Shown: positions 18,967-46,641, counted from the stretch's first letter. The stretch is DNA of 64,000 nt from a virus (IMGVR_UViG_3300047560_001581:1-64000), one strand, 5' to 3'. The notes: a model not told the origin generated them from the sequence alone. Numbers and translations are program-made.

Positions 18967-19350
18967 TCACGTATTTGTTTTGCCGAACTTTTCTTCTGCG
19001 AATTTGACTAACGAATGGTGATGCCCTTTGCGACAATCAAACTGTCTACATGCTATAGGTCTAATATCGTATATTGTACATATACCATCTTTAAACATAC
19101 CGCATCCGAGTGTCACTGGATTCTTATAAAGAGTTATGATAGGTCCGCATTTAGGTTCAGATATCTTATCATCCGGAGTAGGACTTGTAATACTAAGAGG
19201 GTACTTACCTGATGATATCTCATCTGAAGTCAGGTAAGGTGCAAGTGTTTCACAACATTTTGTACACCCATCACACGGTACATCTGCGATTTCTGCGTCA
19301 TTCTGAATGGCAGTTAAATTAATGTTGACTATGTTGTAGATTCTTTTCAT
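18967..19350 (-). CDS. YkgJ-type cysteine cluster protein
   Basis: The product is 127 residues. It has the signature CDGCTKCCETLAP (CxxCxxCC) near residue 26, then KCGPII, LGCGMFKDGICTIYDIRPIACRQFDC, so eight or more Cys that bind zinc or an iron-sulfur cluster in the YkgJ family. The biochemical role of the family is unsettled, with links to iron-sulfur assembly or oxidation of partner substrates. The gene begins 32 bases inside the upstream glycosyltransferase gene and is the last member of the operon that starts at 22507. Confidence 0.85.
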   Translation of the reverse strand: MKRIYNIVNINLTAIQNDAEIADVPCDGCTKCCETLAPYLTSDEISSGKYPLSITSPTPDDKISEPKCGPIITLYKNPVTLGCGMFKDGICTIYDIRPIACRQFDCRKGHHHSLVKFAEEKFGKTNT

Positions 19351-20656
19351 GCAACAACTCTTTTAGTTCTGCCATTGTGCTATTCCAGTTATTGTACTCT
19401 GATTGTCTAAGAATAGTTACCACATCACCGTACCACGCTGATTTGTTACTCTTGTTATAAGCCCATGTATAGTAGTTGAGAATAGGAGTACACACAATAG
19501 TCTCCTTACCCATAGCAGCGGCTGCATGTGGTAACGATGTGCAACTTGAAACAACCAAATCCATTTGGTCTAGATAATCAAGTGTGTCATCCCATGATTT
19601 GATCTTATCACGTAAGGGAGTTACTCTAGGGTGATTGATATCTTCGTCTATATGGAAGCTATAGATAGTCCAGTCTTCTGGGATAGCATCTAACATCTGA
19701 TCCAATGGCAATGTACGATTCAAATCTTGGTCATACTTAGGGTTACCTGAATGTTTGATACCTACTTTAAACTTACCGGGCAATAAATCTTTATCACGCT
19801 TAGGTGTAAGGTAAGGTCCATACCACAACTCAGTATAGTCGATATCTAACCACGTCGGAGTCTCCATAGAGTACGTCCACAACCAGTCAGGATCTATTTC
19901 ATCCAGAGTTTCAATTACATCATATCCATTACGTCTATAAATTTCAGCTAAGTCTTTTCTATCAGTGTACCACAGCGGCTTCATACCCAAGTCTCTGATA
20001 TGCTTTTGAAACCTAATGTTGATTAGTTCGTCCCCGATGCCGCCTTCAAAGCACATGACAACCGTTTGTCCTGGGACAACTTCGCCGCGCCATCTTTTGT
20101 TTTTAAGTGCATATGTTTGCCAGATATTGAGTAATTTCCCGTCTAACAACACATGTCGCAATCCTTCTTTGAAATTGCCATTAGCAATGTCATATGTGCC
20201 TAAGTTGAATCTAACACGTGAATCAATATCTTTGCTTCTTGGTTGTGTGAGAATACTTCTAAGAAGCTGCTCACCTTCAGTTTTACGATTCAATAAAAAA
20301 AGCGCCATTGCTTTGTCCATCATGTTAGGATGGTCGGATGGTTTTATTTTCTCGTTTTCTAAAACTAGCTCAAGTGCCTCTTCTGGTTTGTTTAGATTCA
20401 AATATGCACGAATCATATTCACACGTAATATGTAACGTTCTTCATCCGTTTTAACTTTAGCATATGTTTTCTTTGCTAACTCCAACGTTGTATTGAAGTC
20501 ACGTACTTCAGCGTATAGTTTACCAATGGCGTCGATAGATGTTAGTTCTTCACCCGTGTAGGGTTTAAGTAAATCTAAAATGATTTTAGCTTCGTCAAAT
20601 TTTTTCATCTCAATGAAAAACTCTGCGGCTACTAGTGGGTTCTTATATTGCTGCAT
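19319..20656 (-). CDS. TPR protein with GT9-like glycosyltransferase domain
   Basis: The product is 445 residues. Residues 5-175 are helical pairs with TPR spacing (FFIEMKKFDEAKIILD, AYLNLNKPEEALELVLE, FNLGTYDIANGNFKEGL). Residues 195-430 look like a GT-B fold: VVMCFEGGIGDELINIRFQKHI resembles the GGIGD loop of heptosyltransferase-like (GT9) enzymes, and MDLVVSSCTSLPHAAAAMGKETIV matches the C-terminal donor-binding loop with a Thr-Ser-x-x-H-x-A-A pattern. The family transfers sugars onto LPS or proteins. With methyltransferase, oxygenase and sulfotransferase neighbours it fits a glycan-decorating pathway. It overlaps the methyltransferase gene by 14 bases. Confidence 0.75.
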   Translation of the reverse strand: MQQYKNPLVAAEFFIEMKKFDEAKIILDLLKPYTGEELTSIDAIGKLYAEVRDFNTTLELAKKTYAKVKTDEERYILRVNMIRAYLNLNKPEEALELVLENEKIKPSDHPNMMDKAMALFLLNRKTEGEQLLRSILTQPRSKDIDSRVRFNLGTYDIANGNFKEGLRHVLLDGKLLNIWQTYALKNKRWRGEVVPGQTVVMCFEGGIGDELINIRFQKHIRDLGMKPLWYTDRKDLAEIYRRNGYDVIETLDEIDPDWLWTYSMETPTWLDIDYTELWYGPYLTPKRDKDLLPGKFKVGIKHSGNPKYDQDLNRTLPLDQMLDAIPEDWTIYSFHIDEDINHPRVTPLRDKIKSWDDTLDYLDQMDLVVSSCTSLPHAAAAMGKETIVCTPILNYYTWAYNKSNKSAWYGDVVTILRQSEYNNWNSTMAELKELLHEKNLQHSQH

Positions 20657-21712: not shown

Positions 21713-22507
21713 TTACTCTAGAATCAACAATTCGTCATCAAATTTTTTAAAGAAATCCATCAATTCTCTACCTAACACAACCTTTGGATCATTGCTAGTT
21801 TTTGAAATAGAAGGTCTGATTTCGTGCAGGTCTTTAAATCCCCACATTTCATCTTTAGTTTCTGCACAAGTGTTAACGATGTTATCAAACGTGTGCTGAA
21901 ACTTAGGGATGCCTAAGAAATCATAAACTCTGTCTAATTCATTCTGCGGATTGTTAATAATGTCATCATATTCAACCACTAGAATGTTTTTTCTATGATT
22001 GGCAAGCCCATACTGCAATGAATGGTAGGGATCCGAAGCATAGTTATACCACAGCATCATTGCACGATTGTATGTGTTACAATCTAAACCACGTTTACGC
22101 AAATCTTGGTCTACTGAGTTGTTTGGATCATTTGATATGAGTTTCAAGAAACTACAAATACTGTCTGCAATAGGGCGATATGTACAAACAACCTTAGGAT
22201 TCTCGTCTACGTATGTTTTTATTTGCGGGATGTTCTTAGGCCAACCTCTGTGTTTGTCGAATACGTATGGTTTGTCGATGTGCTTATAGAACGTAGGTGC
22301 CAATACTCGATGCAAATCATCGATTGATGTTTTCTTGTCATATGTATATTGAACTGCTAACTTGTCATATGCTAGTTCAGTTAGACAAAAGATGTCCATT
22401 AAAGGACTAGTAGGGGAGACATATATATCAGGGTTTTGATTTAGCATCGAACCCAAAAGAGTTGAGCCGGAACGTGCGATACCGGAAAGAAAAAATAACT
22501 GTTGCAT
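21713..22507 (-). CDS. Sulfotransferase family protein
   Basis: The product is 264 residues. The PAPS 5'-phosphosulfate loop is SGIARSGSTLL (residues 8-18), and the 3'-phosphate region is VVCTYRPIADSICSFLKLI (near residue 105), with Arg and Ser at the expected places. NILVVEYDDIINNPQNELDRVYDFLGIP is the typical following segment. The start must be at 22507, since the loop begins at residue 8. The enzyme would move sulfate from PAPS to a hydroxyl, probably on a glycan, and needs PAPS from the host. It heads the operon to 18967 and has a perfect TATAAATA box 7 bases upstream and no SD. Confidence 0.85.
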   Translation of the reverse strand: MQQLFFLSGIARSGSTLLGSMLNQNPDIYVSPTSPLMDIFCLTELAYDKLAVQYTYDKKTSIDDLHRVLAPTFYKHIDKPYVFDKHRGWPKNIPQIKTYVDENPKVVCTYRPIADSICSFLKLISNDPNNSVDQDLRKRGLDCNTYNRAMMLWYNYASDPYHSLQYGLANHRKNILVVEYDDIINNPQNELDRVYDFLGIPKFQHTFDNIVNTCAETKDEMWGFKDLHEIRPSISKTSNDPKVVLGRELMDFFKKFDDELLILE

Positions 22508-22536: not shown

Positions 22537-23718
22537 TTAAAATTTTAATGCTATTGTGAAGTTATACCCAGCTTGCACTCTTGACCAGTTTGTGTTTGTA
22601 CCTACTTGAGTTGGCGCTGACCTTACAGATGTGTCGCCCAAGCCTAACTGACCGTTATTATTGTTACCCCATGTCCACAATGTACCATCAGTTTTAATCG
22701 CGGCAGTAAACCCAATCGTACCATTCCCGCCAGCTGATACTTGTTTCCAATTAGTACCTCCAGCATAAGTTTGTACTGGACTTGAATAATATGTTACGGT
22801 GTTGGTTCCCAATTGACCCTGATCGTTCCATCCCCAAGTCCACAAAGTACCATCAGTTTTAATAGCGGCAGTGTGTCTATATCCACCTGACACTTGTTTC
22901 CAAGTAGTATCTGATCCTACTTTAGTAGGTGATGAGCGACTTGTATTGTCACCCAACCCCAATGTGCCATTAGAATTATCTCCCCACACCCACAACGTAC
23001 CATCTGTTTTTGTTGCTAAGAAACCCAAGACGTTAATTCCTGCTGATGCAACGGACCTCCATGTTGTTCCACCTGCGATAGTTTGTACCGGGCTAGACTT
23101 TGATGTAGTAGTATTATCACCTAGTGCACCGTTGTTTCCTCGACCCCAAGTCCACAATGTGCCATCAGTTTTAATAGCAGCAGTAGTTACACCGCCTGCA
23201 GTTGCAGTTCTCCAGTTGTTTCCACCTGCAACAGTTTGTATGGGACTAGAATAATATGTTCTAGTGTTGTTACCTAATTGGCCGTAAGCATTATTACCCC
23301 ATAACCACAATGTTCCGTCTGTTTTCAATCCAGCTGCTGACCTCGTAGTAATGCCGGTAAAAACATCTTTCCAGTTTGTTGTTGCTGATACTGTTTGACC
23401 TGGACTGGATCTATCAACTGTGCCGTTGTTTGCTAACATGCCGTCAGCACCTCTGCCCCAAGACCATAAGGTACCGTCATTTCGTATACCATATGCTGTT
23501 AATGAAGCTACCCCGATTTTCATCCAGTTAGTACCATACCCTACGTTTTGCACTGGACTTGATTTTGTACCAGTTGTATTGTCACCTACTTGGCCGAAGC
23601 TGTTATACCCCCATCCCCATAATGTAGTGCCGAGTATGTATTCTCTGCGAACAAAGAAATCATCAAAGTTATATCCAAAGTTAGAACCAGATTGTGATAT
23701 TTTATAATTAGTAGACAT
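22537..23718 (-). CDS. Seven-bladed RCC1-type propeller protein A
   Basis: The product is 393 residues. After a 29-residue N-terminus (FGYNFDDFFVRREYIL, resembling fibre attachment segments) there are seven units of about 50 residues, each with T-L-W-x-W-G followed by NxxGQLG-type turns and SSPVQ plus GGxxWxxV: GWGYNSFGQVG, SWGRGADGMLA, LWGNNAYGQLG, TWGRGNNGALG, VWGDNSNGTLG, TWGWNDQGQLG and TWGNNNNGQLG. This is the alpha-tubulin-suppressor/RCC1 repeat. Seven blades close a complete propeller. It has no enzyme motif. The position at the end of the fibre locus suggests a receptor-binding tip. It is joined to propeller B by TAATG. Confidence 0.88.
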   Translation of the reverse strand: MSTNYKISQSGSNFGYNFDDFFVRREYILGTTLWGWGYNSFGQVGDNTTGTKSSPVQNVGYGTNWMKIGVASLTAYGIRNDGTLWSWGRGADGMLANNGTVDRSSPGQTVSATTNWKDVFTGITTRSAAGLKTDGTLWLWGNNAYGQLGNNTRTYYSSPIQTVAGGNNWRTATAGGVTTAAIKTDGTLWTWGRGNNGALGDNTTTSKSSPVQTIAGGTTWRSVASAGINVLGFLATKTDGTLWVWGDNSNGTLGLGDNTSRSSPTKVGSDTTWKQVSGGYRHTAAIKTDGTLWTWGWNDQGQLGTNTVTYYSSPVQTYAGGTNWKQVSAGGNGTIGFTAAIKTDGTLWTWGNNNNGQLGLGDTSVRSAPTQVGTNTNWSRVQAGYNFTIALKF

Positions 23719-24962
23719 TAGAACGACCCCGTAACATCATCATTAATAAATGTGTTATCACATATTCCAACCATGAAACAATTCAATGAGCCACCGCCCA
23801 TGGCTATTGATTTCCATGTTTGTATACCACCTGAATTGAACGGTACCGTCTTCTGGTTTGATGAATAATCTCCGAATTCACCATATGTGTTTTTGCCCCA
23901 GCAGTATAACCACCCGTTAGTAGTAATACCCATCATGCTAATATCACCTGTTTGTGCTACGGTATACCACGTAGTCCATGCGCCCACTTGAGTAGGAGTT
24001 GAACGAGTAGTTAAATCACCTTGACCTAATTGATATCCTGCATTTTTGCCCCATGTCCATAGTGTACCGTCTGTTTTAATGCCTGCACTTGCTTGTAAGC
24101 CAGGTGCAATAGTTTTCCAGTTAGTACCGCCGCCGGCAATTTGTACTGGACTAGAATATTTTGTAGTATTGCCGGTACCTAATTGATAGTTTGTATTATC
24201 TCCCCAAACCCACAATTGGTTAGACGAGTTGATAGCCATTGACACATCGCCGCCGCCCATTGAAGTCGAGTAGACTTTTGTCCAAGTTGTCAATAAGCCA
24301 ATTTGCACCGGACTTGACTTACCAACTACAGTACCGTCACCGAGTTGACCGTTTGTGTTTAGCCCCCATGACCACATTGTACCGTTAGTCTTAATTGCCA
24401 GTGCATGTTGAGGGCCGCATGCTATCATTTTCCACGTAGTGCCTGCAGCAATAGTTTGTATCGGAGAAGATGTACCAGTTAAACTGTTATTACCAAGTTG
24501 TCCGGATGCACTGCTACCCCACATCCAAAGAGTACTATCAGCAGCTATACCGCCAGAGAACGATGCGCCGGCTGAAACTTGTCTCCATGTCGTTAATGCG
24601 CCAATTTGAATAGGACTTGAGTAAGAAGTAGTATTGCCACTACCTAAATGACCCACTGAGTTATATCCCCACCCCCACAATGTGCCATCTGTTTTGATAG
24701 CCATAACATGAGAAGATCCAGCTGCAACTTGTTTCCAGTTTGCGCCGCCTGCTACTGTCTGTACTGGGCTAGAATACTTAGTACCGTTAGTGTTGTTACC
24801 AAGCTGCCCGTTTGTATTATCGCCGGACAACCACAACCCTGCCATCTTATTGACGTTGTTCATTTCAGGATATCTATCCAAAATGAATTCTTTGGTAATC
24901 AATGACTTACCAATATCTACCCCGTTAACTTGAAAGCCTGTGAGTTGTACGCCTAGTGCCAT
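23718..24962 (-). CDS. Seven-bladed RCC1-type propeller protein B
   Basis: The product is 414 residues. The N-terminus (VNGVDIGKSLITKEFILDRY) is of the same kind as the short fibre-anchoring segments of neighbours. Seven repeats follow: LWLSGDNTNGQLG, WGWGYNSVGHLG, MWGSSASGQLG, SWGLNTNGQLG, VWGDNTNYQLG, TWGKNAGYQLG and CWGKNTYGEFG. Blade edges differ from protein A, while the core W-G and SSP-x-Q residues are kept, as expected if loops on one face vary for binding. It ends one base into the start of protein A and is preceded by the DUF4376-like gene. Confidence 0.88.
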   Translation of the reverse strand: MALGVQLTGFQVNGVDIGKSLITKEFILDRYPEMNNVNKMAGLWLSGDNTNGQLGNNTNGTKYSSPVQTVAGGANWKQVAAGSSHVMAIKTDGTLWGWGYNSVGHLGSGNTTSYSSPIQIGALTTWRQVSAGASFSGGIAADSTLWMWGSSASGQLGNNSLTGTSSPIQTIAAGTTWKMIACGPQHALAIKTNGTMWSWGLNTNGQLGDGTVVGKSSPVQIGLLTTWTKVYSTSMGGGDVSMAINSSNQLWVWGDNTNYQLGTGNTTKYSSPVQIAGGGTNWKTIAPGLQASAGIKTDGTLWTWGKNAGYQLGQGDLTTRSTPTQVGAWTTWYTVAQTGDISMMGITTNGWLYCWGKNTYGEFGDYSSNQKTVPFNSGGIQTWKSIAMGGGSLNCFMVGICDNTFINDDVTGSF

Positions 24963-24964
24963 CT

Positions 24965-25588
24965 TTAATTTCTCAGGTCAATAGATTCTATATTCTCTAA
25001 TGTTGCATTAGAAATTTCTGTGTTCTTCATAACTTCCCAATCGAAACATGATTGGATATGTTGGGTAATAGCAGTGAAGATTGTCTGTATATCAGTATCA
25101 GTCAATATAATCCAATGGTCTTGGTCTATTTTCCAATTTAACTGAGTAATACCCGACGTGACATATTGATGAAACATGCTACGTGATGCATCGTCTGTAC
25201 TAAATGTGTAGGTTGTACCGTTTATTTCTACATCAATAAATGTAGTTTGCTTTTGCCAACGGACGTTCGCTACTGAGTTACGCAATGTATTCTTTATACC
25301 TTCTAACGGAAGCTGCACTACTTGCCATGATGAAATTGCTACAGTATCAGTGAACTCATAAAAAGGTCCTGATAACTGCTCTGTGATGATATTATAATTT
25401 GGCGGAAGTTCTTGTTGTACTGGATAAACGATAATATCTTCTGAGACATGAACTACATCCATGTTGTCATTAGTCCACTCGAACACATATTGGATGCCAC
25501 AATCTTCTTCAATGACTTCCGTGAATCTTCTTGGATGCCAGCGCATCGGTCCTAAAATAACATTTCCCTGATATACAATTACAAACAT
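24965..25588 (-). CDS. DUF4376-like tail fibre-associated protein
   Basis: The product is 207 residues. The first 90 residues (FVIVYQGNVILGPMRWHPRRF, then IVYPVQQELPPNYN) form a beta-rich head. Residues 105-200 (VEINGTTYTFSTDDASRSMFHQYV, LNWKIDQDHWIILTDTDIQTIFTAITQHI) match DUF4376, a helical domain common at the C-terminus of phage tail fibre or fibre-assembly proteins. It lies between RCC1 propeller genes C and B. The AATAAATA box overlaps the stop of propeller C, and AGAGGG precedes the ATG. A role as adaptor or chaperone for the propellers is inferred from position. Confidence 0.6.
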   Translation of the reverse strand: MFVIVYQGNVILGPMRWHPRRFTEVIEEDCGIQYVFEWTNDNMDVVHVSEDIIVYPVQQELPPNYNIITEQLSGPFYEFTDTVAISSWQVVQLPLEGIKNTLRNSVANVRWQKQTTFIDVEINGTTYTFSTDDASRSMFHQYVTSGITQLNWKIDQDHWIILTDTDIQTIFTAITQHIQSCFDWEVMKNTEISNATLENIESIDLRN

Positions 25589-25602
25589 ATTATCCCTCTA
25601 GC

Positions 25603-26829
25603 TTATTTATTTGGATACAAGTTATAAGGATCAGAATAACAGATAGCAGCGGCGTGATTGTAACCGGTAGTCACATGTTTCCAATTAGTTCCACCGCATG
25701 CGGTTTGTACAGGTGTAGACACACTAGACGCTGTTCCTTGACCAACATATCCACCAGTACCGCGACCCCACATCCATAATGTACCATCTGCTTTTACTGC
25801 ACCATGTGAATAATTCCCGTTACCTCTACCAATTCTTTTCCAGTTAGTGCTCAATGTAGCTTCTTGAACCGGAGTATACTTATCAGTTGATGTACCATCG
25901 GGAACCATAAGAACAGTGGCTGCTCTCCCCCACGCCCATAGTGTACCGTCTTTTTTAATACCATACATTGCTTGGTTTCCACTACCGATTGATCGCCATG
26001 CATACGGATCAGTTCCTGCCATAACTTGTGTGGGCGTTGATCGAGTAGTAACGTCACCGTGCCCAGTCTGACCATATGCTGCTCCTCCCCATGTCCATAG
26101 CGATCCATCTGCTTTAATAGCACCCATATATGGACTTGAACTAGTACTATTGGATACTACAGTTTTCCAAGTATTACCACCTAGTATTGTTTGTACTGCA
26201 CTTGATTGTGCAGTAGTGTTACCAGTACCTAATTGATATGTACCATTGGCTCCCCAGACCCACAGTGTGCCATCATTTTTAATTGCACCAACACTCACAC
26301 CACCTGCTGACACATACTTCCAAGTACTACCGCCTGCAAGTGTTTGTACTGGACTTGAATATGAGGTAGCTGTACCTGTTACACCTAGCTGCGGCCCAGC
26401 TTGACCCCATGTCCACAAAGTACCATCTGTTTTGATACCTATAGAATAGTATAAAGTGCCGCCGCCTGCTGCGACCATCGCCCAGTTAGTGTTAGTTCCA
26501 ACTTGCATAGGTGATGAGTAGTTAGTGATGTTACTTAATCCTAATTCACCTACTAGATTATACCCCCATGCCCATAGTGTACCGTTTGATTTAATCCCGA
26601 GCGTATATTTGGCGCCAGCCGCAACGTATGACCAGTTGTTACCCAATGATACAGTCTGTACAGGACTCGACACTGATGCAATTGCATTGTTCCCAAATGC
26701 ACCATACGCATTGTTCCCCCACATCCATAATGTTCCACTGGTACTCTGTGCATCAACTGCATCATAATCTGTTATGTTTAAAAAAATATCTTCTAAGTCA
26801 CCATCCGGTGAAAGAAATTTACCTGACAT
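25603..26829 (-). CDS. Seven-bladed RCC1-type propeller protein C
   Basis: The product is 408 residues. The N-terminal 33 residues (MSGKFLSPDGDLEDIFLNITDYD) lead to seven repeats: MWGNNAYGAFG, AWGYNLVGELG, TWGQAGPQLG, VWGANGTYQLG, TWGGAAYGQTG, AWGRAATVLM and MWGRGTGGYVG. Blades 3 and 6 have shortened or altered NxxGxxG turns. GGATAG lies 9 bases before the ATG, and the start overlaps the S74 fibre stop by 11 bases, so it is translated right after that fibre. Likely a receptor-binding domain encoded as a separate protein. Confidence 0.87.
   Translation of the reverse strand: MSGKFLSPDGDLEDIFLNITDYDAVDAQSTSGTLWMWGNNAYGAFGNNAIASVSSPVQTVSLGNNWSYVAAGAKYTLGIKSNGTLWAWGYNLVGELGLSNITNYSSPMQVGTNTNWAMVAAGGGTLYYSIGIKTDGTLWTWGQAGPQLGVTGTATSYSSPVQTLAGGSTWKYVSAGGVSVGAIKNDGTLWVWGANGTYQLGTGNTTAQSSAVQTILGGNTWKTVVSNSTSSSPYMGAIKADGSLWTWGGAAYGQTGHGDVTTRSTPTQVMAGTDPYAWRSIGSGNQAMYGIKKDGTLWAWGRAATVLMVPDGTSTDKYTPVQEATLSTNWKRIGRGNGNYSHGAVKADGTLWMWGRGTGGYVGQGTASSVSTPVQTACGGTNWKHVTTGYNHAAAICYSDPYNLYPNK
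25604..25611 (-). promoter_or_regulatory. Late-promoter-like box AATAAATA
   Basis: The box overlaps the TAA stop (25603-25605) of RCC1 propeller C and lies 15 bases before the ATG of the DUF4376-like gene, with AGAGGG between. Confidence 0.5.
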
Positions 26830-28081
26830 TTTCTATCCTTGTAACACGTTGTTCTAATTCATTAATAGCTTCAACTACAAGGCCCATGACACCGTTATAG
26901 TTCAATGACAATAATCCTGTTTCAGGATTAAACTTTACTGCTTCCGGTAATATTTTCTGTACTTGTTGTGCTAACAAACCTGCACTAGGTTCATTACTAT
27001 CTACTAGCATATACGTATAACCACCTAATGTAGATAGTTTTTCTAATGCGTTTAATATTCTTTCTTTATCAGTCTTTACGGTTTCATCTGACAATGAGTT
27101 GAATATAGTAGCGTTCAGTGTACCGTTAGTTGGATAGAAGTAAAGTTTAGTAGTTGAAACGTTGGCAGCAGATAACGTACCGGATGTGGTAGTCGATATA
27201 ATCGGATAGTACGCACTACCTGATGCTGTTTCGTTAGTGATAGTGGCGCCGCCACCGGCGCCGCCTGTTGCCCATGATAAGTTACCAGCACCGTCTGTAC
27301 TTAATACTTGACCTGAAGAGCCACCGGTAATTTTAATGTTTGCATTAGAACCTAAACTTACGTTACTTGCTGTAGTAAAATTAACAGTACCTGTTGTCGT
27401 AAATCCGTTTGTAACGCTTAGTACCCCGTTACCGTTGTATAATCTTGCTTTGATATTGCCTGACAAGAATCCACCGGTGGCAAAAACAATATCATTAGTT
27501 GTTCCACCAGTGCCAGTAGCAAATACTAAGTTACCACCTAAGCCTGCGCCTGTAACTGCGTTTGCAAAAACATAACCATCGTTCTTACCCGTCACTGTAT
27601 AGTTTGCGTCACTGAAGTTTGACCCAGTAAAGCCCATATCGACCCAACCTGATGCATCAGTACCGTTGTCTCCGTATGCCGCAAAGTCAGCAGAGCCTGC
27701 GTTACTTGAGTTGACTGCACCGATTTGAATATATGTTGCGGCTGCATCTTTAGCAATGATAGTTGGATTAGATAATCCAGTTGCGTTTGCACCTGTACCT
27801 ACATACAAGTCTGATGCCACCATGATGTTACCTGCAGTGATGTTACCTGTATATGTAGGTAGATATGCTGCTACATTTGAGTTAGCATATGATACTGGTG
27901 CACCGCTGAATGAGCCATTACCGTATAAAATGTTACTACCATTACCGTCTAAGTTGACAGTTACAATGTTGCCTAAACTTGTAGCATTACGAGTCCAGCT
28001 GTTGGTAGCACTGGCGTATGTATATGTTATACCGCCTACTGTTGCTGTTTGACTATTTACTGGTGAACTTGGGAATGCCAT
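26819..28081 (-). CDS. Tail fibre with C-terminal S74 intramolecular chaperone
   Basis: The product is 420 residues. The N-terminus MAFPSSPVNSQTATVGGITYTYAS is an anchoring motif also seen at 50893-51168. The shaft holds NGSNILYGNGSFSGAPVSYANSNVAAYLPTYTGNI and GGSSGQVLSTDGAGNLSWATGG modules. The last 95 residues (SLSDETVKTDKERILNALEKLSTLGGYTYML, then GLLAQQVQKILPEAV, VVEAINELEQRV) are the S74 domain: Ser-Asp of the autocleavage site, the conserved Lys, and the C-terminal coiled coil. This domain trimerises and folds the fibre, then cuts itself off. The gene just downstream encodes RCC1 propeller C. Confidence 0.88.
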   Translation of the reverse strand: MAFPSSPVNSQTATVGGITYTYASATNSWTRNATSLGNIVTVNLDGNGSNILYGNGSFSGAPVSYANSNVAAYLPTYTGNITAGNIMVASDLYVGTGANATGLSNPTIIAKDAAATYIQIGAVNSSNAGSADFAAYGDNGTDASGWVDMGFTGSNFSDANYTVTGKNDGYVFANAVTGAGLGGNLVFATGTGGTTNDIVFATGGFLSGNIKARLYNGNGVLSVTNGFTTTGTVNFTTASNVSLGSNANIKITGGSSGQVLSTDGAGNLSWATGGAGGGATITNETASGSAYYPIISTTTSGTLSAANVSTTKLYFYPTNGTLNATIFNSLSDETVKTDKERILNALEKLSTLGGYTYMLVDSNEPSAGLLAQQVQKILPEAVKFNPETGLLSLNYNGVMGLVVEAINELEQRVTRIENVR

Positions 28082-28098
28082 TTTATTACCTTATTATA

Positions 28099-28106
28099 TA
28101 TTTATT
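28099..28106 (-). promoter_or_regulatory. Late-promoter-like box AATAAATA
   Basis: The box overlaps the TAA stop (28102-28104) of the glycine-rich gene and is followed by TATAATAAGG and the ATG of the S74 fibre at 28081. Closely similar box-plus-SD blocks precede 38729 and 49580. Confidence 0.5.
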
Positions 28107-28980
28107 GGAACAAGTATCTAATGATTACAATGCCCGACCCACCTGCACCTGATAACCCGCTTGATTGACTGGCTCCGCCCCCGCCATCACCTTTATTGGT
28201 TGCACCGTTAATTGCAGTACCTGATGTGTCGCTAGCATTACTAGCTGAATATGTTACACTTGAACCAGAAATACTACTAGCCCTGCCTGGCGCGCCTGAT
28301 GACGGAGGGACATTTATATCACCATTGCCGCCAGCACCGCCACCGCATACGGTTTGTTGTGAATAATTAGTTGACCATGCTCTATAGCCTTGTCTAGGAG
28401 AAATTACCGATTCTGCGGGATTTCCTATCCAAGTGCCACTGCTGTACCCGTGACCTCCACTAGAGCCACCACTACCTGGATCTCCTGCAGCAGTAGATGC
28501 TCTCGCTCCACCACCGCCACCGATAGAAGTTACACTATAACTACCGGACTTTACAATTGATGAATTTCCACCGTTACTGCCCTTGTTGCTACCTGTTCCC
28601 TTTGCACCGCCGGCGCCTACTGTTACAGTAAAAACATCACTGCTATTAACATATATTCTTGCACCTGAAAAGTCTGCACCTACTGTCTGTGCTGCATAAC
28701 TTTCTAAAAATCCTCCCGCACCGCCGCCGCCAAGGTGAGAGTTTGTACCGGGCATGTCTCCACCGCCACCTCCGCCCCCTGCAATAATCAAATATTCAAT
28801 TGCTTTGTTTACTCCAGCAGTGACAGTAAAGGTACCTGAAGATAAAAATGTATGAACTGTATAGTTCCCCACTGTAGTGACAGTGCCTGTACTAGTAGCG
28901 GTGATAAAGGCAGGTACACTTACTACTGGATTCGTAGTAGATGACGTTAAAGTTTGTGCGCCTGCACGTTTATATGCCAT
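28102..28980 (-). CDS. Glycine-rich tail adhesin-like protein 1
   Basis: The product is 292 residues. After an N-terminal TVGNYTVHTFLSSGTFTV strand module and EYLIIAGGGGGGG, most of the chain is Gly, Ser, Ala and Asn with runs of GGGGG and GGAGG and scattered aromatic loops, ending SGAGGSGIVIIRYLF. This recalls the polyglycine-II sandwich of T-even gp38 adhesins, in which loops between Gly helices bind the receptor. The start overlaps the stop of the 109-residue gene upstream as TAATG, preceded by GGAG. Three paralogues lie at 30794, 38758 and 49614. Confidence 0.72.
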   Translation of the reverse strand: MAYKRAGAQTLTSSTTNPVVSVPAFITATSTGTVTTVGNYTVHTFLSSGTFTVTAGVNKAIEYLIIAGGGGGGGDMPGTNSHLGGGGAGGFLESYAAQTVGADFSGARIYVNSSDVFTVTVGAGGAKGTGSNKGSNGGNSSIVKSGSYSVTSIGGGGGARASTAAGDPGSGGSSGGHGYSSGTWIGNPAESVISPRQGYRAWSTNYSQQTVCGGGAGGNGDINVPPSSGAPGRASSISGSSVTYSASNASDTSGTAINGATNKGDGGGGASQSSGLSGAGGSGIVIIRYLFQ

Positions 28981-30790: not shown

Positions 30791-30798
30791 TATTTAGA
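30791..30798 (-). promoter_or_regulatory. Late-promoter-like box TCTAAATA
   Basis: The box overlaps the TAA stop (30794-30796) of glycine-rich gene 2. AAAGGA lies 8-13 bases before the ATG at 30769. Confidence 0.45.
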
Positions 30799-31732
30799 AT
30801 GCTATTGTACCGGATGAAGTAAATTTGAATACATGGTTACCTGACACGATAGAATAGGTATATGTTCCGGTTACTGTATTTGGTTTTGTGAAGAAAATAG
30901 GAAAATAAACATACACGACACCTGATCCGCCAGCGCCGGCGCCTACGCCATCAACGCCGGGTGCCCCTTTTCCGCCGCCGCCACCACCGGTATTTATTGT
31001 ACCGGCAGTTCCATTAGTACCGGTGCTTCCTGCCGAGCCGGCGCCGCCACCTCCTGCGCCGCCTGCCGCTGCACTAGAATAACCAGCGCCGCCGCCACCA
31101 CCTGCTAAGGTTACTCCCATTAAAGAAAATGATTTACCAGCGCCGCCTGCGGTTCCGTTAGAAGCTGAATCACTTACATTATCTGCTGCTGCTGCGTTTG
31201 CGCCCCCGCCACCGCCGGCTGCAAAGTTTCCACCACCGTATGCTGCGCCGCCGCCATGATTACCTTGATTGGTAACTCCCAAAGCTCCGGCAGTATATGT
31301 TCCTGAAGTAAATGTGCCTCCATATCCTCCGCCACTTCCTCCTACTGCAGGAGCAACAGTACCGAGATTACCCCAATAGTATGTGCCACCGTTTCCACCA
31401 CCGAACGCTAAAACTTTTACAGTTAGATTTTGAAGGCCGCCGTACTCGATTGCACTGTCGCTGCCTGATGTTGGATACGTTGATGTTGAATTAACATAGC
31501 CGACGCCGCCGGCACCGACTGTAATTGTATATGTATACCCGGATGTTACAATCATTTGAGTCAGTACGTAGCCACCTGCGCCACCACCTCCAAAGCCTCC
31601 TCCACCACCTCCACCGACTACACATAAATTAAAGAAGGTTGGAAATGCTGATGCTTTTTGCGGAGTAGAAATCATTCCGCTATTTAACGATGCAGATGAT
31701 CCCATTATACCAGACGAGTAGCGTTTGACCAT
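30794..31732 (-). CDS. Glycine-rich tail adhesin-like protein 2
   Basis: The product is 312 residues. A 30-residue N-terminus leads to FNLCVVGGGGGGGFGGGGAGGYVL, then a TYTITVGAGGVG strand module and long Gly/Ala/Asn runs (GGGGGAGYSSAAAGGAGGGGAGS). It differs from the other three by carrying its VFKFTSSGTIAF strand module at the C-terminus rather than the N-terminus, as if circularly rearranged; the protein at 49614 has the same order. It follows the small gene at 31735 after two bases. A polyglycine-sandwich receptor-binding tip is inferred. Confidence 0.7.
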   Translation of the reverse strand: MVKRYSSGIMGSSASLNSGMISTPQKASAFPTFFNLCVVGGGGGGGFGGGGAGGYVLTQMIVTSGYTYTITVGAGGVGYVNSTSTYPTSGSDSAIEYGGLQNLTVKVLAFGGGNGGTYYWGNLGTVAPAVGGSGGGYGGTFTSGTYTAGALGVTNQGNHGGGAAYGGGNFAAGGGGGANAAAADNVSDSASNGTAGGAGKSFSLMGVTLAGGGGGAGYSSAAAGGAGGGGAGSAGSTGTNGTAGTINTGGGGGGKGAPGVDGVGAGAGGSGVVYVYFPIFFTKPNTVTGTYTYSIVSGNHVFKFTSSGTIAF

Positions 31733-38757: not shown

Positions 38758-39642
38758 TTAAGCGGTGTATCTTATTATGACTATTCCCGATCCGCCTGCA
38801 CCTGCGGCTGAGTTAACACCCGCAATACTTGCGCCGCCACCGCCTGTATTAGTAGTACCATTAACGATAGTTTGATACACTGCGGTTGCACCGCCACCTA
38901 AACCACCTGAACCTTGAGAGCCTGTCGCGGCAGCGCCGCCTGCACCCTTGTTCAATGAGCCACCGCCGCCACCTGCATAATAGTTACCGTCTAACCACTG
39001 TAAACCATCACCACCATTACCACCATTACTAGAACTAGGAGATACGCCTGCTGCTCCTGCTCCGCCGCCACCGGCGCCCGGACGTCCTGATGTAGTTGTT
39101 GCCGGTGCTGTACCACCGTTATTGCCCTGTGACGGGGAAGTTGAAGGAGTATTACCTGCTCCGCCTGCAGGGGCGAACGGTTGTCCTCCACCACCTGAAC
39201 CACCTGAAGCGCCAGCTCCGGAATATCTACCCGATCCGCCGCCGCCACCTGCGCTTGATATCGAAAATGCTGAACTTGCTGATCCAGAGCCACCTAAACC
39301 ACCGTTCGCTGCACCACCTGCGCCTGCGCCACCCACTGTAATAGCATAATCTTGTGGTGTTACTACGTTAGTGCCTGTTCTATAACCGCCTGCGCCACCA
39401 CCGCCTGAACCGTTACCGTCAGTACCACCGCCACCTCCACCGCCGGCAACGACTAGAAAGCTAACAGCTTCATTACCTAAGTTACTAGTAACAGTGAATG
39501 TACCTGACCCAGTGAAGGTGTGATATTTGTATCCACCCACTGTGGTAACAGTACCACCTGATGCAACAATTTTAGGTGCAGAACCAGATACACGAGTGTG
39601 TAAACCTGTAAATGCTCCAGCAAACTGTGTAAATCTTGACAT
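38758..39642 (-). CDS. Glycine-rich tail adhesin-like protein 3
   Basis: The product is 294 residues. The N-terminal 40 residues lead to TVGGYKYHTFTGSGTFTV and VSFLVVAGGGGGGG, followed by Gly/Ala/Ser-rich sequence with GGGGAGGYRTG, DYAITVGGAGAGG and GGDGLQWLDGNYYAGGGGGS, ending GGSGIVIIRYTA like protein 1. Aromatic and polar residues between Gly runs could form the receptor-contacting loops of a gp38-like polyglycine sandwich. Here the upstream neighbour is a 155-residue protein two bases away instead of the 109/123-residue partner seen in the other three cassettes. Confidence 0.72.
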   Translation of the reverse strand: MSRFTQFAGAFTGLHTRVSGSAPKIVASGGTVTTVGGYKYHTFTGSGTFTVTSNLGNEAVSFLVVAGGGGGGGTDGNGSGGGGAGGYRTGTNVVTPQDYAITVGGAGAGGAANGGLGGSGSASSAFSISSAGGGGGSGRYSGAGASGGSGGGGQPFAPAGGAGNTPSTSPSQGNNGGTAPATTTSGRPGAGGGGAGAAGVSPSSSNGGNGGDGLQWLDGNYYAGGGGGSLNKGAGGAAATGSQGSGGLGGGATAVYQTIVNGTTNTGGGGASIAGVNSAAGAGGSGIVIIRYTA

Positions 39643-40122: not shown

Positions 40123-40130
40123 TATTTATT
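40123..40130 (-). promoter_or_regulatory. Late-promoter-like box AATAAATA
   Basis: The box overlaps the TAA stop (40126-40128) of the LamG giant and lies 10 bases before the ATG at 40112. Confidence 0.48.
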
Positions 40131-43100
40131 TCAGTTTCAATGTGACTGAAGGAGGTGTGAATGTTGATGTATAACGTGCATAGCCTTTAGTGATTCTAAA
40201 GTCTGCGATGTAACCATTCATGTAACTTGCGGCAGTTGTATTGTCTACACCGATTCTTAATGGTTGTGTATTGGCTGTTCCCGTACCCATAGATGCAGTT
40301 GTGCCATCAACAGTTCCGTTAATGAACAATTTGCCCGTGTTACCACTCTTAGAAAATGCAATATGTGTCCACACGTTAGCAGCTATAGTACCAGTAGATG
40401 TAAGTGTAGTACCGCCTGTAAAATAGAACGAAACAGTATTAGCAGAGTTAATACGCAAGTTCCACCCGTCTGAGCTAGCTGAACTTCTAGTGACTGCAAT
40501 ATTATGTTCTACACTAACGGCATTTCTGTATACCCAGCATTCGATAGTCATATCTTCTGCTACCATCTGATGCGCCGGGTTATATGGTACTGATATATAA
40601 TCACCGCTACCATCAAAGTAATAACTGATACCGGCATTTACTTGGAATGGATTCTGTGTAGCAACTTTAACCGTCGCTGGACCTGATAGAACCATTGAGA
40701 ATGCGTTTGTGCTGTTATCTACAAATTTATTAGATTGGCATGTTAACAAACTAGTGTTTGCTATTGCTGTCAACGGTACTGTCGATGGCGTGAAGCCTGA
40801 AGTATATTGTGCAGCACCTTTGATAATTCGCAAGTTACTTAGATAGAAGTTACCGTAACCAGCCCATGTTTGTGCATAACCTACATATAACGATGCACTA
40901 GTATCTGTGATGTTAGCACTAGAAGTACCAGTTGCGTCTAACACTCCGTTCTTAAACCAATAAAGAGTTGTGCCTGTTCTAACTAATGCCCAATGAGACC
41001 ATACACCAGCTTCAACAGCAGAGGTTGTATAGAAATCATTCTGCTGTGTTAGTCTAGCACTCATCTTGGAAGCTTGCGTTGAGTTTCTATAAATTTGCCA
41101 ACCGTCTGATGAGTCGTTGACTTTTTTACCAACTACACCAGCAGTGCCAGAACTCCAAGTAATTGGATAGATCCAAAACTCGATAGTAAAATTACCAGTA
41201 CCAAAATCTAACAATGTATTATGTGCAGTTGACATGTAGTCCGAAGTGCCATTAAAGTAATTGCTATAGTAATTTCCATTGTAGGGACTAAATGTTACTG
41301 GTTTAGTTTCTCCTGCAGTTTCGAACGTACTTGTTCTTGATGAATCGATGATGCCAGCACCTGTACCCGGCAACATAAATGTAGCACTGTATGGCAACGA
41401 GTTGACCGTAACAGATGATGTTAGTGGGGTCGATCCTGGGTAGAAGTTACTAGTGTATAATGCAGTACCTCTAATCACACGCACATCTGACATGTAGCCT
41501 TGGAACTGTGCATTGTAACCAGTCTGTGGTCCTGCTGCACCAACTGTTAAAGGATCAGATGTTGTATATAATGAACCGGCATTTGTGCCAGACTTATCAA
41601 GAATACCATTAATGAATAATCTGAATGTACTACCTGAACGAGTTAGTGCTAAGTGAGTCCATGTGTGTTGTTTAACTGTTGCAGTTGAAGAACCTAAATC
41701 AATTTCCCATGACCCACCACTAGTAGAGCCTAATACTCTAACAGTGTTTCCAGATTCCAAGTATATTACATAACTTGCGTATGCGTTAGCGGATCCCTGC
41801 CATTGTTTTCCAACGAATACTTGTTCAGACCCTGTTTTGGTAGTGTATATCCAACCTTCAACAGTGAAATCTGATGTTGTCATCCATTGGGATGGTTGAT
41901 GTGCTGCAACTAAATAATCACCTGAGCCATCAAAGTACATACTACCACCAAACGTTGTTGTATCGTAACTAGATGATGCGTTAGCTGTCGGAGTGAAAGG
42001 TGACACTGCTAATGGTCTAACATCGCCGCTGGTAGTTAAAGCATATGAATTTATACTATTATCTTTTACAGTTGAATCTTTACAAGTCAACAAACTAGTA
42101 CCTGATGATATTGCTGCAATATTTGTTCCAGAACTTTGAGTAGCAGACAATGGACTTGTAGGAGGAGTAAATGAACCGGTATATACACCTAAGCCCTTAA
42201 CTACACGCAGATTACTAATATAGCCTGACATAGGAAAACTTGAGCTATCATAACCATTAATACCCACAATAGGTCTAGTTGAAGTTCCTACTACGTAGTT
42301 ATTATTGTCAGTGTACGTTGAGTTAACCTGTGATCCGTTAACATATAGTTTTCCGCTATTTGAAATTCTTACATAAGCAATATGATACCAGGTATTTACT
42401 GCTAACGTACCGCCGCTAGTTAAGATTGTACCCGCCAATGAATATACTTGTACAACTCCGGCAGTAGTTATTTGTAAACCGAATCTACCGGTACCAGTTG
42501 AGTCTCCTGCGTTCAATGTATCGTACAACCCTCGTTGCACCGATAAGTTATTGACATACACCCACATTTCAATGGTAAAATCCCCAGTGCCCATTGAGAA
42601 TGTTGATTGGTTACTAGGTAAAGTAAGGTAATCACCGCTACCATCAAAGTATGTAGAATAGTATTTAGATACAGTTAATGTACTGAATGGTGAGAACTTT
42701 TGAACCTTTGGTGATCCATTTATAGTAGGAGTAAAGTTATTTACTGAGTTGTCAGCAAACGATCTTGATTGACCAGTTAACAAAGATGTATTCGCGGTTG
42801 CAGTCAGCGGGCTTGTAGGTGGTGTAAAAATCTGTGTACCTACAGTTGTGCTTGCAGTTGTATATTGTGCAGTACCTTTTAATATTCTAAAATTCGAAAC
42901 GTACCCAGTAAGATAATCCGACGTACCACCAGATCCATAATTCACTACTCCTGATGTTCCATAGTTGCCGGTATCTGTACCAACGTATGCTAACATACCG
43001 TTGACATACATTTTAAACCCGTTAGCAGAAGTACTTTCTCTAACCACTGCAAGGTGATTCCATTGATCGTTTGCGATCAAATAACTGCAAGTATATGTTG

Positions 43101-46100
43101 TGGAACTTGGACCAGAATAATAACGCAAAGTACCCACTGTTGATCCGCTATAACCACCTGTACCTAATAGGAACTGACTTCCTTGCACTGTGATTTGTTT
43201 GTTGTTAGTACCTGTCGGTAAGTTTACCCAACCTTCGAACGTAAATGCACCTGTACCGAATGCGTATTGTGCGCTTGACGGAAAAGTGATATATGATGAA
43301 CCATCAAAATAGTTACTCCAGTTATCTCCGTATGGACTGAACGTTCCACCGCTAACCATATTGCCATTTTTAGCAACTATGTTATTGAAACCTGATACTT
43401 CATTGATGGTATTGTTATTATGAGGGCCGTTATACTGTAGTGTTAACAATTGTGTGTTTGCTACATTTGTCAAAGGTGATAAACTAGGTGTAAACACTGA
43501 TGTATACAATGCAGTACCTTTTATAATTCTGACATTAGAAATATATCCCAACCAATCATTCGATGTAGTACCATTTTGTCTACCAATGTAGACAGGGCCC
43601 GAACTAACGTTAGTATCAGTGTTTGTGGCAGTTCCATCTACTACGCCGTTGATAAATTGTTTAACTGTTGAACCGGATCTAGCGATAGCAACGTGTACCC
43701 ATTGATTCAATGGAATTGCGTTCGTAGATGTTATCCAAGATGAAGTTGAGTTAAATGCAGTTAATTGATTTGACGAGTTCATGTAGAACAATACGTTGAC
43801 GTATGAGCCTCCACGCAAATCAACAATGGCTCGTTGTGTGCCTGAATCAGTTCTGTACACCCATGCTTCAATAGTGTAATCTCCGCTTAATGCGAATGCA
43901 GGAGATGATGCTATTGAGCAATAATCACCGGATCCATCAAAATACATACTACCGTAAGTATTTACTAAGGTGCTTGAATAGCTAAGTGCAAACGGTGACA
44001 CTGGTACCTGCGTAGCTGATGAGGTTCCTATTGTGATAGTAGCACCGGTAGATGAATTATCTTTGATAGTAGTATCATTACATAATAATAATACTGTATT
44101 CGCAATTGCAGTTAATGGTGTCGTACTAGGAGTGAATGCGGTACTATATACTACTGTTTTAGTAATGCGAAGATTGTTAACAAGACCGTTGTACTTTGTT
44201 CCTATTTGACCAGTATCTTGCCCGACGTATATAGTTTGGGCGGCGCCACCGTCTACTGAACCTGCATATGTTTGAGTAGATTCTGCCACACCGTTCAAAT
44301 ACATAGTAAATGTATTACCACTTCTAACAATTGCTACATGATACCATGTGTTATTCTGGATAGAAGTAGAACTAACTAGCCAATTAGCTGTATTTTGTGC
44401 GTCATACACACCAAACACTAGTTTAGTAGGATAATCTTGGTGTCTATCGTCTAGTTGCCATCTGTGCATATTCCAGTCACCGTTGCACAATAATATTGGA
44501 TAGTCATTAGTTTTTGCTCTAGTATTGAACCATAGTTCAATAGTAAAATTACTAGTGCCTAATGCAAACGCACTATTGCTAGGAAGATATAGGTAATCAG
44601 TTGAACCATTGAAGTTAGTAGAATAATACTGTGCAGTGAGTTGGTATGCAGAACCGAAAGGGCTCAGTGGAACAATTTTTGTACCCGACCCCGCAGTCAC
44701 AGTAGCATACACCGGTGACGAATCTATGTGTCTAGGACGATTACAAGTGACTAGACTAACATATGAGCTAGACACTTTAGGTGATGTAGGAATTGTAATT
44801 GTAGTTGAAGACGCTGAATAAGGTGCGCTTCCTGCAGGTCCATTGAACACGCTAACATTTGAAACATAACCACTTAGATATACACCGTTATATTCACCGT
44901 CAATACCTAGACCAATACGCAACGCACCTGGGTTTGCATCAGTAGCAGTGTTTAATCCGCTGTAAGTCGCTCCTCTAGTCCCGTTAATAAACAATGACCA
45001 GATTGCACTTGATTTTACCAATGCAATATGATACCACATGCCGGGTACTGGAATTGTTGTTGAAGTTATCGTGCCAATCGCACTTGTTCCAGGTGAACCT
45101 GATGCGCCCCATACTAGCTTAACGTATTTACTAGCATCTAGTTGAACAGACCAGTTTTGAAAACTTACACCGTTTCTGCCTGACTTGTCCATGATAACCT
45201 GATTAGCACTAACAGTAGTCCAATACACCCAGCATTCAGCAATAAATGTATTAGTGTCACCTGACATGATTGATAAGTTTGAATTATGTGGGATGCTTAC
45301 ATAATCGTTAGATGTTCCGTTGAATTGAACACTGTAATAACCGGGCTGATATTGGTTGAAAGTTTGTACTCTAGTATCTCCTGGAACAGTAATCGGTGCA
45401 TTATTGATACTAGCGTCATTCACAATTGAGCTTGTTTGACTACTTGCACTAGCAGATATTAATAATGTCGTATACTGCCAATACAAATCTGCTAATGATA
45501 TTACCCATGTAATCGTATTTGTTGCACTTCTGTTAGTGCTAGCGGCAGTAGCAGTAAACAAGGTTGATGATGTGCCTTCAACTGTGGGTGTTCCGCTGAC
45601 TGTTCCTGAACTTAATGATAGCCCGGTGGGCAATGCATTTGCAGTGTATGTAATAGATTTTCCAGCAGCACTAGTTGCTGACAATACCTGTGAGTATAAA
45701 GTACCATCTAGTTGTACTGTTGACCCGGGTGTAGGAGCACCCCAAGTAACTACGTCTTGTTGTACGTTGAAATAAATTGTCTCAGATGCAGTGCGAGTAG
45801 TTGCGTTACCAGTTGCCGTAATTGTAGTAGCAGTATTTCCTACAGCCGTTGCTGCACCACTGATTACACCTGCTGATAATGTTAACCCTGTAGGCAATCC
45901 AGATGCTGAATAGTTGACCGTGTCGCTTGCTGCGCTTGTTGCAGATAATGTTACATTTGAGATGTTTGAATATTCATAACTGTTGACTACTGAACCATTT
46001 GATGGACTTGACCACGTTATAACATCAGGGTTGATAGTAATACTGAACTGACGATTTGTATCTTGGTTCTGTGCGTCAGATGCCGCAACAGTAAATGTAT

Positions 46101-46641
46101 AAGTTGTAGGGGATCCTGAACCAACTACACTAGTACCAGTAATAGTACCGTTTGTGTTCAGTGTTGCTCCTGTCGGTAGCGAACCACTAACTACACTATA
46201 TGTAACAGGGGCATCACCTGTGGCTGAAACTGACCTACTAAAAGCAGAGGTTTCATATTGACTACCTAATGAACCAGCTGATGTAGTCCACGCAGGTGTA
46301 CCTGAATATTGAATACCTGGTACAGCGATACCAGTACCACCGTCACTGTTAACCACATATAGAATATAACTACCTGCTGAATTTGCAGGGCTTGTAAATG
46401 TAATAGACGTTGAACTGACGACTGTAACTACACTTGCTGTAGCTGTACCAACCAACACTGATGCGCCAGTTGCAAAGCCTGTACCAGTAATAGTAATAGT
46501 CTGTCCGCCTGCAGTATCTGCCGCAGTATCATTGCCTACATATGCAATACTTGTAATCTTTGGTGTAGTAAGTGCAGTGATTGTAGTTGCGATAACATCC
46601 GTTACTGTCCCGCTTTTAATTTCTTTTGAAGATTGTGTCAT
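40126..46641 (-). CDS. Giant adhesin with IPT/TIG, He_PIG-like and eight LamG-like domains
   Basis: The product is 2171 residues from the ATG at 46641 (AGGA SD, TAATG overlap); the frame opens at 46662 only with TTG. Residues 25-110 are an IPT/TIG domain (ITITGTGFATGASVLVG). Three putative-Ig repeats follow to about 390 (SGSLPTGATLNTNGTITGT, SASGLPTGLTLSAGVISGA and similar). Then come eight concanavalin-A/LamG-like domains of 200-235 residues, each beginning with a YFDGSGDYL-type strand and FTIEMWVY, and each ending with N-x-R-I-x-K-G-x-x-Y-x-x-x-F-x-P. They start near 45340, 44630, 43960, 43325, 42665, 41945, 41275 and 40630. LamG domains bind sugars or proteins. A fibre-like host-surface adhesin is the likely role. 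Confidence 0.88.
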   Translation of the reverse strand: MTQSSKEIKSGTVTDVIATTITALTTPKITSIAYVGNDTAADTAGGQTITITGTGFATGASVLVGTATASVVTVVSSTSITFTSPANSAGSYILYVVNSDGGTGIAVPGIQYSGTPAWTTSAGSLGSQYETSAFSRSVSATGDAPVTYSVVSGSLPTGATLNTNGTITGTSVVGSGSPTTYTFTVAASDAQNQDTNRQFSITINPDVITWSSPSNGSVVNSYEYSNISNVTLSATSAASDTVNYSASGLPTGLTLSAGVISGAATAVGNTATTITATGNATTRTASETIYFNVQQDVVTWGAPTPGSTVQLDGTLYSQVLSATSAAGKSITYTANALPTGLSLSSGTVSGTPTVEGTSSTLFTATAASTNRSATNTITWVISLADLYWQYTTLLISASASSQTSSIVNDASINNAPITVPGDTRVQTFNQYQPGYYSVQFNGTSNDYVSIPHNSNLSIMSGDTNTFIAECWVYWTTVSANQVIMDKSGRNGVSFQNWSVQLDASKYVKLVWGASGSPGTSAIGTITSTTIPVPGMWYHIALVKSSAIWSLFINGTRGATYSGLNTATDANPGALRIGLGIDGEYNGVYLSGYVSNVSVFNGPAGSAPYSASSTTITIPTSPKVSSSYVSLVTCNRPRHIDSSPVYATVTAGSGTKIVPLSPFGSAYQLTAQYYSTNFNGSTDYLYLPSNSAFALGTSNFTIELWFNTRAKTNDYPILLCNGDWNMHRWQLDDRHQDYPTKLVFGVYDAQNTANWLVSSTSIQNNTWYHVAIVRSGNTFTMYLNGVAESTQTYAGSVDGGAAQTIYVGQDTGQIGTKYNGLVNNLRITKTVVYSTAFTPSTTPLTAIANTVLLLCNDTTIKDNSSTGATITIGTSSATQVPVSPFALSYSSTLVNTYGSMYFDGSGDYCSIASSPAFALSGDYTIEAWVYRTDSGTQRAIVDLRGGSYVNVLFYMNSSNQLTAFNSTSSWITSTNAIPLNQWVHVAIARSGSTVKQFINGVVDGTATNTDTNVSSGPVYIGRQNGTTSNDWLGYISNVRIIKGTALYTSVFTPSLSPLTNVANTQLLTLQYNGPHNNNTINEVSGFNNIVAKNGNMVSGGTFSPYGDNWSNYFDGSSYITFPSSAQYAFGTGAFTFEGWVNLPTGTNNKQITVQGSQFLLGTGGYSGSTVGTLRYYSGPSSTTYTCSYLIANDQWNHLAVVRESTSANGFKMYVNGMLAYVGTDTGNYGTSGVVNYGSGGTSDYLTGYVSNFRILKGTAQYTTASTTVGTQIFTPPTSPLTATANTSLLTGQSRSFADNSVNNFTPTINGSPKVQKFSPFSTLTVSKYYSTYFDGSGDYLTLPSNQSTFSMGTGDFTIEMWVYVNNLSVQRGLYDTLNAGDSTGTGRFGLQITTAGVVQVYSLAGTILTSGGTLAVNTWYHIAYVRISNSGKLYVNGSQVNSTYTDNNNYVVGTSTRPIVGINGYDSSSFPMSGYISNLRVVKGLGVYTGSFTPPTSPLSATQSSGTNIAAISSGTSLLTCKDSTVKDNSINSYALTTSGDVRPLAVSPFTPTANASSSYDTTTFGGSMYFDGSGDYLVAAHQPSQWMTTSDFTVEGWIYTTKTGSEQVFVGKQWQGSANAYASYVIYLESGNTVRVLGSTSGGSWEIDLGSSTATVKQHTWTHLALTRSGSTFRLFINGILDKSGTNAGSLYTTSDPLTVGAAGPQTGYNAQFQGYMSDVRVIRGTALYTSNFYPGSTPLTSSVTVNSLPYSATFMLPGTGAGIIDSSRTSTFETAGETKPVTFSPYNGNYYSNYFNGTSDYMSTAHNTLLDFGTGNFTIEFWIYPITWSSGTAGVVGKKVNDSSDGWQIYRNSTQASKMSARLTQQNDFYTTSAVEAGVWSHWALVRTGTTLYWFKNGVLDATGTSSANITDTSASLYVGYAQTWAGYGNFYLSNLRIIKGAAQYTSGFTPSTVPLTAIANTSLLTCQSNKFVDNSTNAFSMVLSGPATVKVATQNPFQVNAGISYYFDGSGDYISVPYNPAHQMVAEDMTIECWVYRNAVSVEHNIAVTRSSASSDGWNLRINSANTVSFYFTGGTTLTSTGTIAANVWTHIAFSKSGNTGKLFINGTVDGTTASMGTGTANTQPLRIGVDNTTAASYMNGYIADFRITKGYARYTSTFTPPSVTLKLK
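40500..45450 (-). repeat. Eight-fold LamG domain array
   Basis: Eight in-frame units with a period of about 640-720 bases lie in the giant adhesin gene. Each has a conserved F-D/N-G-S-x-D-Y strand, an acidic W-V/I-Y strand, a W-x-H-x-A-x-x-R/K strand and a terminal VRIxKGxxxYTxxFxP strand. DNA identity between units is low by eye, so the array is old rather than freshly expanded. Confidence 0.8.

Follow-up and report, generated by a model that had tools for sequence, protein, structure and literature searches.

Tandem RCC1 propellers with one variable face as probable receptor-binding heads of phage fibres

Three RCC1 proteins encoded in a fibre locus of a virus (IMGVR_UViG_3300047560_001581) are probably fibre receptor-binding heads, each combining a position-specific anchor with an RCC1 propeller that varies on one face. 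In this model, the proteins would be carried in the virion, where the short N-terminal anchor of each would attach it to a particular site on a fibre or the baseplate. The seven-bladed propeller would be the head, with its framework and one face held constant. The opposite face would be formed, in each blade, by the long loop after the WG pair (blade columns 6–9 and 19) and a short turn (columns 40–41), and would display tyrosine-rich variable positions repeated sevenfold. This variable face would contact the host surface, its evolution driven by positive selection and, for the majority of relatives, also by DNA exchange between propellers of the same genome. The S74 chaperone would fold the upstream fibre, and the DUF4376 protein would probably assist the folding or docking of the heads, much as Tfa- or gp38-type accessory proteins do.

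We found no report in the open literature of RCC1 as a phage receptor-binding protein. The model would give phage proteins of a large group, currently annotated as acting in chromosome condensation or DNA metabolism, a concrete, testable role in host recognition. It also suggests a new adhesin scaffold with a binding face that could be read column by column from sequence alone, allowing comparison of receptor specificity among many uncultured phages of aquatic habitats. The first-pass annotation of this DNA had already proposed receptor-binding heads at the fibre tips, and the role is now well supported by indirect evidence: fusions to S74 and collagen domains, variability at the UVR8 face, selection and fast turnover.

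Results

Three seven-bladed propellers in a fibre locus

The stretch of DNA analyzed here (the window) comprises 64 kb out of a 66.5 kb virus record. Its ribonucleotide reductase is nearest to that of Xanthomonas phage X1 (62% identity), no cultured phage gave a nucleotide match to a 20-kb query from the adjoining structural region, and a PADLOC search returned no defence families. In the direction of transcription (minus strand), the locus runs from the S74 fibre gene through RCC1, DUF4376, RCC1 and RCC1 to a sulfotransferase, and then through genes for a 2OG-type protein, a methyltransferase, a TPR protein and a CxxCxxCC protein to nrdA/nrdB. The S74 gene lies immediately upstream of the first RCC1 gene and overlaps it by 11 bases. 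The main features are:

26819–28081, minus strand: S74 fibre protein with C-terminal S74 intramolecular chaperone (Pfam PF13884, E 1e-10; PHROG long tail fibre distal subunits)
25603–26829, minus strand: RCC1 propeller gene 1, 408 aa, anchor class C, after S74 (seven blades; Pfam RLD 1e-46)
26731–26829, minus strand: gene 1 N-terminal anchor (MSGKFLSPDGDLEDIFL..), class C (position-specific conservation)
25642–26730, minus strand: gene 1 propeller, seven blades (blade HMM)
24965–25588, minus strand: DUF4376 protein, 207 aa (PF14301, E 2e-9)
23718–24962, minus strand: RCC1 propeller gene 2, 414 aa, anchor class B, after DUF4376 (seven blades, the last weak; Pfam RLD 5e-61)
24837–24962, minus strand: gene 2 N-terminal anchor (..VDIGKSLITKEFILDRYPEM..), class B (position-specific conservation)
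23766–24836, minus strand: gene 2 propeller (blade HMM)
22537–23718, minus strand: RCC1 propeller gene 3, 393 aa, anchor class A (seven blades; AlphaFold2 closed propeller; UVR8 fold match 3e-34)
23623–23718, minus strand: gene 3 N-terminal anchor (..FGYNFDDFFVRREYI..), class A (position-specific conservation)
22543–23622, minus strand: gene 3 propeller (AlphaFold2 model; blade HMM)
21713–22507, minus strand: sulfotransferase adjoining the third RCC1 gene, part of a recurring downstream set (Pfam PF13469, 2e-15)
19319–20656, minus strand: TPR protein of the recurring downstream set (recurrence at related loci)

Each window RCC1 protein contains exactly seven blade units, spaced 50–55 aa apart, with seven tandem RCC1 repeats above the Pfam cut-off (RCC1/RLD E-values of 1e-46 to 2e-62 for the three proteins). 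A blade HMM also counted seven in each, and shuffled versions of the proteins gave a mean of 0.3 motifs. The first-pass annotation had described three complete propellers at 22537–26829, in adjacent genes of seven TLWxWG units each, directly following an S74 fibre and with a DUF4376-like gene among them. Its coordinates, blade count and neighbours are correct, and genes 2 and 3 are contiguous, but the DUF4376 gene separates genes 1 and 2, and the strict motif is degenerate in several blades of the gene 2 protein (LWLSG, MWSWG, LYCWG), the last of whose blades is weak (22.8 bits).

AlphaFold2 modelled the 22537–23718 protein (61 sequences) with pLDDT 89, pTM 0.87 and 28 strands, the N-terminal 30 residues being of low confidence (59–66). 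For this protein, the model provides the closed propeller anticipated in the first pass, predicted as seven blades of four strands like solved RLD structures. Foldseek matched it to UVR8, the plant UV-B receptor (E 3e-34, TM 0.8–0.9), to the RLD domains of HERC1 and HERC2 and, among viral models, to other phage RCC1 proteins, including the 'DNA condensation protein' of GAP32. UVR8 and the HERC proteins share the seven-bladed RCC1 fold with the window proteins but are eukaryotic signalling proteins, in which the face equivalent to the variable one described below has one fixed function. Eukaryotic RCC1, a nucleotide-exchange factor, binds Ran and the nucleosome; Ran is not known from phage–bacterium systems. 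BLIP-II is also a seven-bladed propeller that binds a protein partner, with picomolar Ki (PMC6121496), but it differs from the phage heads in having three-stranded blades and in being a bacterial β-lactamase inhibitor.

Among 170 complete, distinct RCC1 proteins, 152 have 7 blades, six have 14, three have 21 and one has 28. The number is thus a multiple of seven in 162 and not in the other eight, as required if a closed seven-bladed fold can be extended only one complete propeller at a time. Giant proteins of 21–35 RCC1 blades correspond to three to five fused propellers (L034, 4101–11438; the start of L070; L035; L027).

Variable positions map to the face through which UVR8 dimerizes

Across 826 aligned blades, the framework is strongly conserved (LWxWG, GQLG, P, W, KTDGT), and the six columns of highest entropy are 41, 40, 6, 8, 9 and 19. 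We mapped the UVR8 residues named as belonging to its dimer interface and salt-bridge network (PMC8748919, PMC5091643) to blade columns via the UVR8 sequence. These 18 residues fall on exactly the six top-entropy columns (P 5.6e-8 for six columns being the top six of 51 by chance), and the buried tryptophan ring of UVR8 falls on the near-invariant column 4. Judged from blade topology and the UVR8 alignment, the two variable loops of each four-stranded blade are placed on the same face, opposite that of the two conserved turns. The conserved cores and variable surface loops noted earlier are therefore borne out in a more specific form, in which the variable positions occupy one face only, the counterpart of the UVR8 dimer face. 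Tyrosine makes up 18% of residues at five of the six variable columns, compared with 0.6% elsewhere. A hypervariable surface on a conserved scaffold is thus present, as in an adhesin.

To compare rates of change, we used blade pairs with near-identical framework DNA; at cut-offs from 0.95 to 0.88, dN/dS was 8.3 to 2.8 at the six variable columns and 0.38 to 0.30 at the remaining columns, the pairs not being independent of one another. The contrast is not circular because UVR8 by itself suffices to define the columns, and by this codon-based estimate positive selection acts on the six variable columns only. The propellers also turn over quickly: between phages whose neighbouring enzymes are mostly 85–98% identical, they are mostly 63–72% identical, with one at 83% (pairs L060/L062, L068/L074, L075/L057 and L020/L028).

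Codons at the variable columns of the 826 blades carry T at the third position in 64% of cases. This is a strong excess, greater than for these amino acids at other blade positions, as though change fell chiefly on the first two bases. A diversity-generating retroelement was considered and rejected. No RVT_1 was found in 24 records, which include the complete S-SRM01 genome and many fragments, and the 24% of purine third bases at variable codons do not fit AAY-derived codons.

Position-specific anchors and exchange between propellers

The N-terminal segments sort by gene position (after S74, after DUF4376, or third) into three classes, which were assigned by hand-made patterns. Across the genomes of 20 complete trios, identity between anchors was 41% within a class and 29% between classes, whereas propellers were 57.4% identical within a class and 57.3% between classes, so class carries no signal in the propellers. 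In 17 of the 20 genomes, propellers resemble their own paralogues more closely than they do the average propeller of the same class elsewhere, and on a propeller tree genome labels change 30 times, compared with 51 when shuffled, while class labels do no better than shuffled ones. Paralogues in L033, L016, L020, L019 and L017 share exact DNA runs of 60–179 bases, indicating recent conversion between them. In most phages, then, it is the propellers and not the anchors that appear to be homogenized within a genome. The window is the exception: identity between its heads is 44%, the lowest of all, and no exact run common to them exceeds 20 bases. A search of ~1,400 proteins for the anchors on non-RCC1 proteins gave chance-level matches only, leaving anchor swapping between unrelated heads without support.

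The first pass had taken the three proteins for alternative heads. Two observations speak against this: each gene position keeps its own type of N-terminal segment, and virions of coliphage W70 contain three tandem RCC1 proteins together (PMC11370258). Together they suggest that the three heads are used jointly, at different sites. Fixed anchors combined with exchangeable heads would give direct access to the way in which phages alter their specificity.

These patterns also bear on whether the propellers are structural connectors that pair with each other or with fibre subunits through a UVR8-type dimer face. UVR8 does dimerize through the equivalent columns (PMC5091643), and such a role would suit both the presence of several propellers in one genome and the fused arrays, which have 14–35 blades. 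A constant assembly interface, however, would not evolve faster than the rest of the propeller, as this face does (dN/dS 3–8), and the propellers are exchanged between anchor positions; we consider connectors very unlikely.

Links to fibres and virions

Fusions to S74 and collagen offer the most direct evidence on location, and they suggest that such propellers are fibre domains. A single 1117-aa protein in L051 comprises collagen repeats, a seven-bladed propeller (residues 604–956) and a C-terminal S74 domain; L034 encodes collagen, four propellers and S74 in one protein, and L056 a propeller with S74. In these three fused proteins the propeller precedes S74, while the window RCC1 proteins stand alone. 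In Pseudomonas phage PollyC, a T7-tail-fibre-type N-terminus (just below the Pfam cut-off) is joined to RCC1 repeats.

RCC1 proteins of the same family as those of the window (PHROG 4219) are virion proteins in W70, GAP32 and 121Q. All three adjacent copies in W70 were detected in the virion by ESI-MS/MS (PMC11370258), and the GAP32 protein, a fold match to the 22537–23718 protein, is also a virion protein (PMC5259590); neither report gives the location within the virion. In contrast to the fibre-head reading preferred here, the authors of these studies propose a role in DNA ordering.

By that account, the RCC1 proteins would condense or order DNA and be packed with the genome, as proposed for phAPEC6 and W70 (PMC7247149, PMC11370258). 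PHROGs places the family under DNA metabolism, and the propeller proteins are mildly basic (net positive charge in 83%, median pI 8.8), a weak charge that is not decisive. Propellers are, however, fused to collagen and S74 fibre domains, the RCC1 genes are positioned after the S74 fibre gene, and the positively selected face is the most variable one, unlike a DNA-binding surface; its most variable columns hold 1% lysine and only 6% arginine. Mainly on the fusions and the selection, we reject DNA condensation as very unlikely, and the filing of the RCC1 family under chromosome condensation is probably misleading. Depolymerases are common among phage tail proteins of similar place, but propeller-based enzymes, such as capsule or polysaccharide depolymerases, are extremely improbable here given a variable face with no conserved polar cluster, near-invariant columns that are framework Gly, Pro, Trp and Leu or the KTDGT turn, and nearest folds that are binding domains.

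As putative receptor-binding heads, the window proteins resemble in arrangement the T2-type gp38 adhesins at the tip of gp37 (S16, PP01), which determine host range and likewise are products of a separate small gene partnered with a long-fibre gene, with a constant scaffold and hypervariable loops (PMC12892980). They differ in that gp38 is a polyglycine-II sandwich present as one kind per phage, whereas the heads described here are RCC1 propellers, of which a genome usually encodes three, each with a different anchor. The propeller fold rules out membership of the gp38 family.

Recurrence of the locus and its accessory genes

A scan of viral contigs returned at least 599 stretches, at least 594 of them encoding relatives. 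We read 77 loci, 73 of them distinct; as these are fragments picked by similarity to the query, the frequencies below hold for that sample only. The order S74 (or an S74-RCC1 fusion), RCC1, DUF4376, RCC1 occurs in 35/73 distinct loci among the matches listed, placing an RCC1 gene next to a distal fibre gene as for an adhesin. This order, which the first pass had proposed to seek in viral metagenomes, is therefore widespread and no peculiarity of the window phage.

The cultured Synechococcus phage S-SRM01 has a similar locus (gp334–gp345) of S74, RCC1, DUF4376, RCC1, cargo genes, RCC1 and sulfotransferase, and its third RCC1 protein is 49% identical over its full length to the window counterpart. 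It differs in that its first propeller has six recognized blades and in that TPR, 2OG and other genes stand between the second and third RCC1 genes. A term search of the S-SRM01 genome paper found no mention of RCC1 proteins.

The DUF4376 protein probably acts at the fibre tip, as a connector or an assembly factor. Each of the 37 homologues matches PHROG 10508 'tail fiber protein', and in BUCT-ZZ01 the protein at this position resembles a tail assembly chaperone family weakly, below the threshold. The AlphaFold2 model has pLDDT 95, its best PDB fold match reached only E 0.08, no PDB relative was found by sequence, and querying viral contigs with the window DUF4376 protein alone gave no matches. 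A role in assembly is likely, and the protein may act as a chaperone.

A sulfotransferase gene directly follows an RCC1 gene in 27/73 loci among the matches listed, namely the window (21713–22507) and 26 related loci. The nearest solved relatives of this sulfotransferase are protein-tyrosine sulfotransferases (E 1e-4). Given this position and the tyrosine-rich variable face, the enzyme might modify the RCC1 heads. A set of TPR, 2OG, CxxCxxCC, methyltransferase and sulfotransferase genes is found repeatedly alongside RCC1 genes, its order varying between loci (L009, L046, L057, L068, L075 and others). It is conceivable, though less likely than not, that the RCC1 propellers of tailed phages are a repeat-based, antibody-like recognition scaffold, with three position-locked heads per virion and seven variable patches on one face of each. 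Gene conversion between heads and strong positive selection would diversify them, and neighbouring phage enzymes might modify them, for instance by tyrosine sulfation.

The same fibre region encodes four glycine-rich fibre-type proteins (28102–28980, 30794–31732, 38758–39642 and 49614–50549), two with Pfam PF21722 matches and three matching PHROG 2295, which are possibly further adhesins. A 2178-aa protein at 40126–46662 contains about eight repeated stretches that match baseplate-wedge-type PHROG families.
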